From contig NZ_CP151076.1 of assembly GCF_038096165.1 (NCBI RefSeq), forward strand, positions 1,116,001-1,180,000: a stretch of 64,000 bases of DNA, read 5' to 3'. Shown piece after piece: positions 17,029 through 27,376 of the stretch. Below the pieces are notes generated by a model that saw only the letters and a list, made by a program, of their open reading frames with translations, did no database searches and was not told where the DNA came from. Within the stretch, counting starts at the first letter, position 1. Every line of letters begins with the position of its first letter. This DNA comes from Pseudomonas sp. G.S.17 (GTDB lineage Bacteria; Pseudomonadota; Gammaproteobacteria; Pseudomonadales; Pseudomonadaceae). A program made the translations under genes and the position numbers.

Positions 17029-17343
17029 TTATAAATAAGCGGTCTCAATCCCCCGCCGCTCATTCATGCAATCCTCCGAGCCCGTCTCGAACTCGCGGCA
17101 GATCAGCGGTCGCTTTTCATAGATCGTGCACATCATGCTGTTGCGATCCAGTGCCGCACACCAACCATCATCCAGGCGCAGCATGACTTCGCCGCCCCAG
17201 TCGTCATTGTCGATGTAGCGTTCAGGCACGCCGGTGTCGGTGATCAGCATCACTTCCAGCTGGCAACAGCAGGCCGCACAGGTCGAGCAGGTCACTGCGG
17301 TTTCTGTGGGGATTTGATTGGTCGGGATCAGGGTCGGCGTCAT
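17029..17343 (-). CDS. YkgJ-family cysteine-cluster protein
   Basis: A 104-residue protein of the YkgJ type (putative zinc- or iron-chelating, family function unproven). An N-terminal cluster TCSTCAACCC is followed by scattered cysteines (GWCAAL, MMCTIYEKRPLICREF, SEDCMNE). The frame is open further upstream, but the ATG at 17343 gives a compact protein and avoids overlap with the DUF2878 gene, which ends 26 bp before. It may be the last gene of the long light-cluster transcript, though the gap makes that less certain. Confidence 0.85.
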   Translation of the reverse strand: MTPTLIPTNQIPTETAVTCSTCAACCCQLEVMLITDTGVPERYIDNDDWGGEVMLRLDDGWCAALDRNSMMCTIYEKRPLICREFETGSEDCMNERRGIETAYL

Positions 17344-17369
17344 AGGCGCGCAGTGTATGCCAGCACAGG

Positions 17370-17909
17370 TCACTCGTGTGGAATGCCTGACCGGTGCCCG
17401 CGCTGTTGATCGGGCTGCAGTGCCTGAAAATACCCGGCCAGCCATTGCAGCAAAGGGAACACCGCCGCCCATATCACGGCCAGGACAAACATGCTCGGCC
17501 ACAGGCCTAGCGGCAGATGCACGCCGGCCAATTGCGAACCGGCGTAATACGACATCGGCCCGCCGATCGCGCCCAGCAGGCTGGCGCGCCACCAGGGTTT
17601 GGCGGTCCAGCTCAGGCAGTGATTTAACGTCGTCGCCAGGATCGCCCACAGCAGCATCAGCCATGGCGGAATCAGCGGCCCGCCCGCATCGAAATCAAAT
17701 ACCCCCAGCATCAGCAGCGCACTGTCGAGAATCGTGCCCAGCCCGGTTATCCACAGCAGCAGCTTGCCTTCTGCCGCCCACGAACTTATCCACAGCAGAT
17801 GCACGAGCAGTACGCCAATCGGGATCAGCAACCAGAAGCTGTCACCGCCGATGACACAGGCGAACCAGCCCGCCTGGAACAGCGCGGCGTTGGCGATCTG
17901 TTTAAGCAT
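17370..17909 (-). CDS. DUF2878 integral membrane protein
   Basis: A 179-residue inner-membrane protein with about five hydrophobic segments and many tryptophans. It fits the DUF2878 family, whose function is unknown. It overlaps the cyclopropane-synthase-like gene by 8 bp, so translation is probably coupled. I recall the family recurring with fatty-acid methyltransferase, DUF1365 and FAD-oxidoreductase genes, which suggests a role in the same lipid-modification pathway, but nothing in the sequence proves it. Confidence 0.82.
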   Translation of the reverse strand: MLKQIANAALFQAGWFACVIGGDSFWLLIPIGVLLVHLLWISSWAAEGKLLLWITGLGTILDSALLMLGVFDFDAGGPLIPPWLMLLWAILATTLNHCLSWTAKPWWRASLLGAIGGPMSYYAGSQLAGVHLPLGLWPSMFVLAVIWAAVFPLLQWLAGYFQALQPDQQRGHRSGIPHE

Positions 17910-19170
17910 CGAAGCGACCCAGCAACGGTTGCGGCAAGGCGGCCGGTTTGGCCAGCAGCAGTTGCGCCGTGCCGATGGTGCGTTCGAGAAAACCGCCTTC
18001 GCAATAACACAGGTAAAACTCCCACAGGCGCAGGAAGTAGTCGTCGTAACCCAACTCCATCAAATAACCATGGGCGTGGCTGAAATTCTCGTGCCACAAA
18101 CGCAAGGTGCGCGCGTAATGCAGGCCGAAATCCTCCATGTGCAGCAGGTTCATGTCGGTGTCACGGCCGACGATTTCGATCATTTTGTGCACAGACGGCA
18201 ACGCGCCGCCGGGGAAGATATAGCGCTGAATGAAGTCGACACTGCGCTTGGCTTGCTCGTAGCGCTGCTCACGAATGGTGATGGCTTGCAGCAGCATCAA
18301 GCCGTTGTCCTTGAGCAAGTGCGAACACTGCTTGAAATAGGTCGGCAGAAAACGATGGCCGACGGCTTCGATCATCTCGATGGAAACCAGCTTGTCGAAC
18401 GTCCCGGTCAGGTCGCGGTAATCCTTGAGCAGCAAGGTGATTCGATCCTGCAGGCCCAGTTGGGTGATGCGCTGTTCGGTATAGGCGAATTGCTCTTTCG
18501 ACAAGGTCGTGGTGGTGACTCGGCAACTGTAATTTTGGGCCGCATAGATCGCCATGCTGCCCCAGCCGGTGCCGATTTCCAGCAAATGATCGTCCGCCTT
18601 GAGCCCCAGTTTCTGGCAGATGCGCTCCAGCTTGTTCAGCTGCGCCTGCTCCAGCGTGTCTTCGGGAGTGAGGAATTGTGCGGCGGAATACATCATGGTC
18701 GGGTCGAGGAATTGCTCGAACAGCTCGTTGCCCAGATCGTAGTGTGCCGCGATGTTTTTCTGCGAGCCTTCCCGCGTGTTGCGATTGAGCCAGTGCAGGC
18801 TCTGAATGAACGGCCGCCCAAGACGGGCCATCCCGCCTTCCATGCCATCGAGCACATCCAGATTGCTGACGAAAACCCGGATCACCGCAGTCAGGTCCGG
18901 CGAAGTCCAGTAACCGTGGATAAACGCTTCGCCCGCGCCGATCGAACCGGAGCTGGCGACCATGCCCCAGGTGGCCGAATCCAGCACATGGATCTCACCC
19001 ATTAACGGCGCGCCGGCCCGGCCGAACACATAACGCTCATCGCCCTCGACGACGACCAATTGCCCGGCGCGCAACTTCTCCAACTGGCGCAGCACCCCAC
19101 GGCGCAGGAGGTTGGCGGTCAGGCTGTTGGTCCCCAGATTGGCAGAAAACCCACTGCTACTGCTTTTCAT
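17902..19170 (-). CDS. cfa: Cyclopropane-fatty-acid-synthase family methyltransferase (possibly UfaM)
   Basis: A 422-residue SAM-dependent enzyme of the CFA synthase family, acting on unsaturated acyl chains of phospholipids. The SAM motif LEIGTGWGSMAIYAA is clear, and an SVDFIQRYIFPGG motif follows. The gene lies among FAD-oxidoreductase, DUF1365, SDR and photolyase genes, as do the light- and singlet-oxygen-induced relatives. That makes UfaM, which methylates fatty acids en route to furan fatty acids, a better guess than a stationary-phase Cfa. It overlaps DUF1365 by 14 bp and DUF2878 by 8 bp. Confidence 0.9.
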   Translation of the reverse strand: MKSSSSGFSANLGTNSLTANLLRRGVLRQLEKLRAGQLVVVEGDERYVFGRAGAPLMGEIHVLDSATWGMVASSGSIGAGEAFIHGYWTSPDLTAVIRVFVSNLDVLDGMEGGMARLGRPFIQSLHWLNRNTREGSQKNIAAHYDLGNELFEQFLDPTMMYSAAQFLTPEDTLEQAQLNKLERICQKLGLKADDHLLEIGTGWGSMAIYAAQNYSCRVTTTTLSKEQFAYTEQRITQLGLQDRITLLLKDYRDLTGTFDKLVSIEMIEAVGHRFLPTYFKQCSHLLKDNGLMLLQAITIREQRYEQAKRSVDFIQRYIFPGGALPSVHKMIEIVGRDTDMNLLHMEDFGLHYARTLRLWHENFSHAHGYLMELGYDDYFLRLWEFYLCYCEGGFLERTIGTAQLLLAKPAALPQPLLGRFDA

Positions 19171-26099: not shown

Positions 26100-27082
26100 T
26101 TGAGGTGTTCCATCAAGCGCCGCGCAGCTTCCTGGCCGCTGAGCCAGGCGCCTTCGACGCGTCCGGACAGGCACCAGTCGCCGCACACATAAATGCCCAG
26201 ATCGGAGTCGGACAACGCGCCCCATTCATGAGCGCTGGCGGGCCGCGCGTACAACCAGCGATGGGCCAGGCTGAAACTCGGCGCTGGCATCGCGCAGCCA
26301 ATCAACTCGGCAAACGCGCCATGCAGATGCTCGATCACGGTTTCTTTGGGCATGTCCAGATGCTGCTTGGACCAGCTGCTGGTCGCATGCAGCACCCACG
26401 TGTCGAGGGTCACGTCGCGGCCGGGTTTACTGCGGTTGCGCGCCAGCCAGTCCAGCGGGCTGTCCTGTACGAAGCAGCCTTCCAACGGTGTTTCCAAGGG
26501 TTTGTTGAAGGCCAGGGCGACGGCCCAGGTCGGGTCCATTTTCACCCCGGCGGCCACGCCTGCGAGTTTCGGCGCAGCAGCCAGCAGCGTCGTGGCCTGA
26601 GGTGCTGGTGTGGCGATCACCACGTGGCTGAACGGACCATGGCTCTGGCCCTCCGCGTCCTGCAGATTCCAGTGATGTTCACCCTGAAACACTTCAGTGA
26701 TGCGGCAGGAAAACGTCACGGGCAGATCGCCGAGCATGGCGCGGGTAATCGCACTCATGCCGGGTTTGCCGACCCAGCGCACTTGCTCGTCCGGGGACGG
26801 GCTGAGCTGGCCTGCATGAAAGTTGTAGAGCGAAGGCGTCCACTGTTCAACGCAGCCCTGGGCTTGCCATTGCTGAACAGCCGTCATGAAGCGGCGGTCG
26901 CGAGCAGTAAAATACTGGGCGCCCATGTCGAGCGAGCCTGCATCACTGCGTTTGCTGGACATCCTTCCGCCACTGCCGCGGCTTTTGTCGAAAAGATGTA
27001 CGGAATGCCCGGCGGCGTTTAACGCCTGGGCGGCGGAGAGTCCGGCGATGCCGGTACCGATGATTGCGATAGGTACAGTCAT
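26096..27082 (-). CDS. Renalase-like FAD/NAD(P)-dependent oxidoreductase
   Basis: A 328-residue flavoprotein with the N-terminal FAD motif [17 protein letters not shown] and the renalase-type motif [12 protein letters not shown], followed by [10 protein letters not shown]. Bacterial renalase-like proteins oxidise isomeric dihydronicotinamides. Whether that applies here is unknown. The promoter region upstream carries a near-consensus LitR box at 27130-27153, and the Trp-rich gene overlaps its stop. It is therefore probably a second, separate light-controlled unit. Confidence 0.88.
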
Positions 27083-27129
27083 AGGGGCCTCGTTACCTTG
27101 TCTGCACAGACTACGCCGTAGTTAAAACC

Positions 27130-27153
27130 TGTACAATATTGTTTTTTGGTATA
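27130..27153. promoter_or_regulatory. Candidate PplR/LitR operator in the renalase-like / TIGR01777 divergent region
   Basis: TGTACA (27130-27135), 12 bp, then GGTATA (27148-27153). On either strand it matches the recalled PplR1 consensus at 11 of 12 half-site positions. It is about 50-70 bp upstream of the renalase-like start and about 225 bp upstream of the TIGR01777 start, so it most likely serves the minus-strand gene and could affect both. Confidence 0.6.
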
Positions 27154-27376
27154 ACTTGCAGCCATCTGCTGTGCGCAGGCTGCTGACCCTTGCTCGTACG
27201 GCTCAAGCTTGAGTCGGGTGTCTCTGAAAACCTTTTTGTGACGATGCGAACGGATAGTCCCGCTTTACGCTCCTCAGGTTTGGCCTATCGTTCAAGCACA
27301 GCCTTGGCTTATGAATTCATGGGTCCTGAAAAATAGACTACGCAATAGCCCCGAACGCTACGCAAGGAAACCTGCC

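Follow-up and report, generated by a model that had tools for sequence, protein, structure and literature searches.

Why would a pseudomonad string a MerR-family regulator, a DNA photolyase and a set of lipid-modifying enzymes together in one tightly packed run of genes? The question is raised by a 64,000-nucleotide stretch of the Pseudomonas sp. G.S.17 chromosome (NZ_CP151076.1, positions 1,116,001 to 1,180,000; hereafter the window, whose numbering we use unless stated otherwise), which carries ten minus-strand genes at 17029-25745 and, 138 bp upstream of them, a renalase-like/Trp-rich gene pair at 25884-27082. A sequence-only reading of this region had placed all twelve genes and their strands correctly and had proposed a light response with DNA-repair and lipid arms. 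Our analysis makes it very probable that the run is a blue-light-inducible photoprotection operon in which a LitR/LOV switch would govern DNA repair, the removal of 4-thiouridine from tRNA and the synthesis of a furan lipid, with enzymatic activities that are predicted. The cluster is orthologous to a light operon that was shown experimentally in P. mendocina. Its gene identities, promoter architecture and conservation are shown by the analyses reported here; we infer its light response from the P. mendocina operon.

Nine of the ten genes are tied together by eight junctions of +3 to -14 bp. The genes for RudS (24783-25745) and LitR (23850-24779) are separated by 3 bp, as are those for LitR and the photolyase PhrB (22392-23846), and from there on each gene overlaps the next: the photolyase gene and an NTF2-like gene (21977-22399) by 8 bp, the latter and a short-chain dehydrogenase (SDR) gene (21198-21980) by 4 bp, the SDR gene and that of a UfaD-type oxidoreductase (19954-21201) by 4 bp, this one and the UfaO/DUF1365 gene (19157-19957) by 4 bp, the UfaO gene and that of a UfaM-type methyltransferase (17902-19170) by 14 bp, and the UfaM gene and a DUF2878 gene (17370-17909) by 8 bp. 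A gap of 26 bp sets off the last gene of the run, which encodes a YkgJ-like protein (17029-17343; 104 amino acids, Pfam CxxCxxCC). These computed junctions confirm the packing that had been read from the letters, i.e., nine genes overlapping or 3 bp apart and the last one following after 26 bp.

Upstream of the run lies a sigma-70-like promoter, TTGACT-N16-TATGAT (25802-25829, minus strand), whose hexamers and spacing are identical to those of promoter P6650 of P. mendocina. Around it, 50 bp apart, are two full matches to the published LitR consensus T(G/A)TACA-N12-TGTA(C/T)A, to which we assign no strand. Read along the minus strand, the order is a box containing the TTGACT of the -35 element (TGTACA-N12-TGTACA, 25818-25841), 16 bp, TATGAT, a second box between promoter and start codon (TATACA-N12-TGTACA, 25768-25791) and the ATG. 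P6650 likewise has one footprinted box over its -35 element and one between start site and ATG (PMC9758184), and the two boxes described here occupy the places of its Site 1 and Site 2. The consensus scan found another LitR-like box with one mismatch before the renalase gene (27130-27153), which bears out the earlier claim of such boxes in both promoter regions. Allowing up to one mismatch, the window holds 4 matches where shuffled sequence leads one to expect 0.03; the fourth (22300-22323) falls within the NTF2-like gene.

For P. mendocina, the operon with its promoter, boxes and light induction is already in print (PMC9758184). There, PME6650-PME6610 form a nine-gene polycistron inferred from RNA-seq, light induces phrB 27-33-fold and ufaM 25-33-fold, and the pplR1 genes of P. 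putida are the published counterpart of this pmlR1 operon (PMC9758184). The likeness comprises nine genes (with the order taken from locus numbers), the promoter hexamers, the two boxes, and a LitR plus a short LOV protein in the genome. Four products listed as hypothetical, PME6650, 6635, 6620 and 6610, would by their position be RudS, the NTF2-like protein, UfaO/DUF1365 and the DUF2878 protein.

Could the run nevertheless be a set of unrelated neighbours that are packed together, have several promoters and share no response? In other lineages, the lipid core is indeed accompanied by RudS, photolyase and regulators in different arrangements, and the region has about as many promoter-like and terminator-like matches as chance would give (4 sigma-70-like matches versus 3.2 by chance; 13 terminator-like sites versus 9.5 in shuffles). 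However, the sole promoter match that scores 10/12 is the box-flanked one, eight tight junctions connect the genes, the P. mendocina orthologue was inferred from RNA-seq to be a polycistron, and the gene order is largely retained in other loci of the genus (the survey stretches L152-L155 and L158-L160). We therefore consider such a chance assembly highly improbable.

The operon's LitR (309 amino acids) matches Pfam MerR_1 with 62.5 bits and B12-binding_2 with 25 bits (cut-off 23) and lacks the other B12-binding domain; possession of the B12-binding_2 part only is the class II LitR pattern (PMC9758184). A second LitR with 36% identity to the operon's is encoded about 50 kb away (G000:C1:1190934, where G000:C1 is the chromosome of this genome). 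It adjoins the gene of a 153-amino-acid PAS protein (9524-9985 of fetched stretch L009) that matches short "Sensory box" LOV chains, with 224.8 bits to 7r5n and 199.3 bits to 3sw1. Beside this pair sit folM-like and folE-like genes, named from a look at the sequence and from the published neighbourhood; the folM-like gene also has a weaker box, which departs from the strict form at two positions.

In P. mendocina, the lit LOV protein binds LitR and blocks its DNA binding (PMC9758184), and orthology to this system supports the earlier proposal of a light-induced operon under a class II LitR with a LOV partner. In the dark, class II LitR (the operon's own, the second copy or both) would sit on the two promoter boxes and repress transcription. 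Blue light would activate the short LOV protein, which would then bind LitR and lift the repression as it does in P. mendocina, and the LitR encoded in the operon would provide feedback.

Two arms of the predicted response concern nucleic acids. PhrB (484 amino acids) scores 532 bits against a cut-off of 506 with NCBIfam NF007955 and thus passes the equivalog model for cyclobutane pyrimidine dimer photolyase; it would reverse UV-made DNA dimers, and orthology supports the DNA-repair arm of the sequence-only reading. The first gene had been called YbgA-like, but the 320-amino-acid product is a TudS-DUF1722 fusion (Pfam 2-thiour_desulf plus DUF1722), i.e., RudS, a predicted tRNA 4-thiouridine desulfidase. 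All seven key residues defined for RudS_KT of P. putida (PP_0741; PMC11417400) are kept at an offset of one, namely three Cys, a Glu, an Arg and two Ser. RudS replaces plain YbgA as the name of this protein. RudS genes are often found within light-responsive operons, one of which is named with photolyase and LitR (PMC11417400). By ridding tRNA of the 4-thiouridine sulphur that near-UV light can crosslink, RudS would add a third arm that had not been part of the earlier proposal. One transcript would then unite three separately published stories: light control by LitR and LOV, the tRNA chemistry of RudS and furan fatty acid synthesis.

For the lipid arm, the sequence-only reading had suggested "perhaps furan fatty acids", and the gene identities strengthen this to a complete UfaM-UfaD-UfaO set with a furan as the predicted product. 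In the published nomenclature, UfaM is a methyltransferase that uses S-adenosylmethionine, UfaD a desaturase binding nicotinamide and flavin adenine dinucleotides (NAD/FAD) and UfaO a DUF1365 protein, and the Ufa proteins of R. palustris and R. sphaeroides make furans (PMC7380195). The counterparts in the operon are a methyltransferase of 422 amino acids with CMAS fold and UfaM-type active-site pattern, an FAD oxidoreductase of 415 amino acids (Pfam FAD amine oxidoreductase; predicted methylated-fatty-acyl desaturase) and a DUF1365 protein of 266 amino acids with GTG start (predicted O2-dependent furan-forming enzyme). Together, they would methylate, desaturate and oxygenate cis-vaccenoyl chains of phospholipids to yield a methylated furan fatty acid, which would scavenge singlet oxygen; such quenching is the likely role of the lipid here. 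The prediction that follows is that illuminated cells of ordinary Pseudomonas would make furan lipids. Our partial literature search found no paper stating that a LitR operon encodes the whole UfaM-UfaD-UfaO set, though such a statement may be in print.

How firmly do these lipid genes belong together? A DUF1365 profile search of 398 genomes of the phylum found the family in 153, among those listed 9 of 10 other genomes of the genus, and we fetched 60 loci selected to spread over families (9 from this genus or family). UfaD is adjacent to and co-directional with DUF1365 in all 60, and a CFA-type gene (named after cyclopropane fatty acid synthase) lies within 100 bp in 53 and is absent there in 7. 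Within 9 kb of DUF1365, proteins scoring above 60 bits with those of the window include SDR at 39 loci, photolyase at 30, NTF2-like at 22, DUF2878 at 16 and RudS at 15. By profile labels, the order NTF2-SDR-UfaD-UfaO-UfaM is consecutive in 22 of the 60 loci and continues with DUF2878 in 17. In a second survey, which covered 229 genomes of the class, DUF2878 was present in 41, among them that of G.S.17; the full six-gene core with DUF2878 after the CFA-type gene was present in 7 of 40 stretches from 39 of these genomes (with the weakest match, G098, left out). The YkgJ-like gene was seen in both surveys only at loci of the same genus or family.

The methyltransferase is where a cyclopropane product had to be weighed. 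Compared with E. coli Cfa (6bqc), Ala replaces Cys, EMIEA replaces GMFEH and Gln replaces His in this protein, at positions that we take to form the bicarbonate site of Cfa, and the other CFA-family protein of this genome retains the Cfa residues. In the 60 loci, 54 CFA-type proteins are encoded no more than 150 bp from DUF1365; E265, A269 and Q295 are invariant among them, and the Cys position holds Ser in 40, Ala in 13 and Gly in 1. In a wider set of 97 rows that includes the window protein and the genome's other CFA-family protein, and in which a few rows are fragments or odd and one reads EMxES, five UfaM-type rows retain the Cys, so that only the E/A/Q pattern is near-diagnostic. This residue pattern separates UfaM-type proteins from cyclopropane synthase. 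We reject an assignment as cyclopropane fatty acid synthase on the replaced active-site Cys and His and not on score: the methyltransferase does fall below the NCBIfam cyclopropane-synthase cut-offs, but the genome's other CFA-family protein also misses that of NF008686 (264.7 of 400 bits), and the score is thus no evidence either way.

A third methyltransferase pattern, EMxEH with His and Phe, appeared in 29 rows near DUF2878 and DUF1295 in other lineages. There, the order EMxEH methyltransferase-DUF2878-DUF1295-DUF6134-lipocalin recurs (L042-L060, e.g., L049, L050 and L053), and several of these loci lie beside LitR-like, RudS-like or glutathione peroxidase genes.

UfaO is weakly conserved, with 20-54% identity to the window protein across the alignment. 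As a stand-in for the characterised alphaproteobacterial proteins, we compared locus L143, which has the order UfaD-UfaO-MFS-DUF3833-SDR (MFS, major facilitator superfamily), and found 42% identity for UfaD and 27% for UfaO. An AlphaFold2 model of UfaO built on 51 aligned sequences (the window protein plus those of 50 of the 74 loci in which DUF1365 was found) reached a mean predicted local distance difference test score (pLDDT) of 91.9 and a predicted template modelling score (pTM) of 0.90, and it shows many beta strands, a few short helices and two C-terminal helices. Against the PDB, no chain matched the model at E 0.001. The best hits, which were to nitrobindin, fatty-acid-binding-like and lipocalin chains, had E 0.007 or weaker, and none of the 50 listed exceeded a template modelling score of 0.45, which is too weak to name the fold. 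BFVD gave no match at E 0.001 either, and sequence searches of the PDB with DUF1365 returned poor matches only, the best at E 0.016 and 0.22. Our guess from the model is that UfaO may be a lipid-holding barrel.

These data bear on the possibility that the same light operon has a lipid arm that stops short of furans and yields methyl-branched or cyclopropane acids only, with UfaD and UfaO acting on another substrate. The weak conservation of UfaO, the lack of a convincing solved relative or confident fold match for DUF1365 in the above searches, and the seven loci without a CFA-type gene close by would fit this explanation. What speaks for the furan is the unbroken adjacency of UfaD and DUF1365, the replacement of the cyclopropane-synthase residues and the furan synthesis by proteins of these names in R. 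palustris and R. sphaeroides (PMC7380195), and we regard the shorter lipid pathway as unlikely.

Some observations weigh against a light-induced furan operon and should be kept in view. UfaO is only 23-31% identical to Rhodobacteraceae-type proteins (in the first 29 rows of the alignment), and its substrate could differ. Our limited literature search turned up no description of furan fatty acids from Pseudomonas, a genus that PMC7380195 does not name. Terminator-like sites on the minus strand fall within ufaM (18036) and the DUF2878 gene (17856), and the YkgJ-like tenth gene beyond the 26-bp gap is not among the nine genes of P. mendocina.

Three further products accompany the lipid enzymes and would probably act before or after furan formation: the NTF2/SnoaL-like protein (140 amino acids, Pfam SnoaL_2), the SDR (260 amino acids, Pfam adh_short) and the DUF2878 protein (179 amino acids, Pfam DUF2878), which is hydrophobic and a predicted membrane protein. 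The first is probably an enzyme; its residues F33, D35, W79, G98, H111, D113, D116 and G129 are invariant in all 38 aligned sequences, the window's included. In R. sphaeroides, deletion of RSP1087 (the SDR gene), 1088 or 1089 leaves the fatty acid profile unchanged (PMC7380195), and the SDR therefore probably acts after or beside furan formation. One speculative scheme, to which we give little credence, is a renewable, light-charged antioxidant cycle: the Ufa enzymes would build the furan, singlet oxygen would open it to an ene-dione, and the NTF2-like protein and the SDR, with DUF2878 at the membrane, would reduce and re-close or detoxify the chain. Such a cycle would explain why the NTF2-like and SDR genes stay with the furan enzymes despite the RSP1087 deletion having no effect on the profile.

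Is light the trigger, or is it singlet oxygen? The sequence-only reading had named both. Light is supported by orthology to P. mendocina, but singlet oxygen acting through ChrR finds no support in this genome. The alternative would be an operon driven mainly by singlet oxygen via a ChrR-controlled extracytoplasmic function (ECF) sigma factor, with LitR secondary, as in P. syringae and Rhodobacter. In P. syringae, the orthologous operon is bound upstream of phrB by a ChrR-type sigma factor, whose promoters are responsive to singlet oxygen (PMC5507510). Of the 60 surveyed loci, 27 have a ChrR-like gene close to the module, compared with 23 that have an ECF-like and 16 that have a LitR-like gene. 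However, the ChrR cupin domain PF12973 has no match in the genome (the ECF sigma factor itself was not searched), and no TGATCC-N16-CGTA site, the P. syringae sigma-factor motif, is found upstream of the photolyase gene with up to one mismatch; the window has 2 matches versus 2.3 expected. Moreover, a LitR-like gene co-occurs with a ChrR- or ECF-like gene in none of the 60 stretches, each viewed over about 9 kb. Primary control by singlet oxygen thus appears very unlikely, and we retain LitR and LOV as the switch.

In P. syringae, the core enzymes had already been matched to the Rhodobacter singlet-oxygen regulon: PSPTO_1116-1119 and phrB correspond to R. sphaeroides genes at 34-39% identity (Table 2 of PMC5507510). 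Locus PSPTO_1123-1115 of strain DC3000 shares orthologues of SDR, UfaD, UfaO, UfaM and phrB in one place with the operon described here, and differs in that the ECF/ChrR-type sigma factor binds inside the gene before phrB, where we found no such site. With the R. sphaeroides sigmaE-ChrR core regulon (RSP1087-1091 and RSP2143-2144), the operon has UfaD, UfaO, UfaM, SDR and photolyase in common; in contrast, its regulator is LitR, its enzymes form one run, and RudS, NTF2-like and DUF2878 genes are added. The run also lacks an MFS or DUF3833 gene. RSP1089 of R. sphaeroides is presumably a transporter. A ChrR-ECF pair divergent from UfaD-UfaO-MFS-DUF3833-SDR, which is the R. sphaeroides arrangement as far as papers name the genes, occurs in 18 of 80 named loci by row count. 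Vibrio cholerae has a MerR-like gene and a photolyase gene in one predicted operon and a light-induced CFA-type gene, but the genes of its MerR/ChrR blue-light response are spread over several loci and ChrR is present as well (PMC5241685).

The same lipid module thus stands beside two unrelated regulators in different lineages. On a quick tree of UfaD plus UfaO, whose long branches make it a hint only, at least four changes separate LitR and ChrR labels with unlabelled loci left out, and the module therefore seems to have switched regulator more than once. In R. sphaeroides, ChrR turnover under singlet oxygen needs furan lipids (reviewed in PMC6852236), a feedback that cannot work here without ChrR, whose cupin domain has no match in the genome.

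LitR boxes also occur beyond the operon. The relaxed palindrome occurs at five places in the whole genome, two of which are the operon's boxes; of the other three, one precedes a PAS chemoreceptor gene, one falls within a long frame resembling a molybdoenzyme by eye, and one lies between two minus-strand frames. Across 40 genomes of the genus, counting that of G.S.17, the strict palindrome was found 90 times, spread over 36 genomes, versus 2 times for a reversed control pattern, and strict pairs 46-51 bp apart are found in 12 genus genomes among those with sites listed. We fetched 29 strict-palindrome loci from as many genomes of the genus, taking a single site per genome: 15 are close to rudS or litR, 8 fall inside frames (probable chance matches), one each lies by a chalcone isomerase-like, a photolyase-family, a LOV-like (by eye) and an amine-oxidase/SDR gene or pair, and 2 are unassigned. 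Exact relaxed boxes are present in 12 of 100 survey stretches, nine of which (L152-L160) represent this genus or family; an exact box is missing from the stretches of several loci that do have a LitR-like gene (e.g., L104, L106 and L110).

The renalase-like FAD amine oxidoreductase upstream of the operon (26096-27082, minus strand; 328 amino acids, Pfam Amino_oxidase/NAD_binding_8) overlaps by 4 bp with the gene of the Trp-rich protein (25884-26099, minus strand; 71 amino acids, TTG start, Pfam DUF2389). All five examined loci that carry the renalase gene have a LitR-like box (up to one mismatch) ahead of it, in one case at -220.

Some boxes mark genes elsewhere. A perfect box at G000:C1:2086359-2086382 (around 8360 of L010) precedes two genes: that of a 408-amino-acid double-PAS chemoreceptor by about 220 bp, possibly pointing to light-controlled chemotaxis, and a divergent Gfo/Idh/MocA oxidoreductase gene by 120 bp. 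A LitR-like palindrome also recurs inside a long frame (...LDRVDG.LKVTGQAR) at G000:C1:5313930 and in L246, L254, L260, L263 and L271 from other genomes of the genus, which probably reflects coding conservation and not a regulatory site. In L156 and L157, from another genus of the same family, the NTF2-like gene that opens the lipid core has its own LitR box, and another is found next to a chalcone isomerase-like/DUF3833 pair; judged from these boxes, core and pair look like further members of a light-lipid regulon. The corresponding pair of this genome (G000:C1:3689682) has no box with up to two mismatches in the fetched stretch. In Ruegeria (L196, L199 and L201), a UfaD-type gene is found with chalcone isomerase-like, MFS and two DUF3833 genes, and no DUF1365 or CFA-type gene is labelled in the stretch. 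Just beyond the end of the operon, the window carries a PagL lipid A 3-O-deacylase gene on the plus strand (16264-16782).

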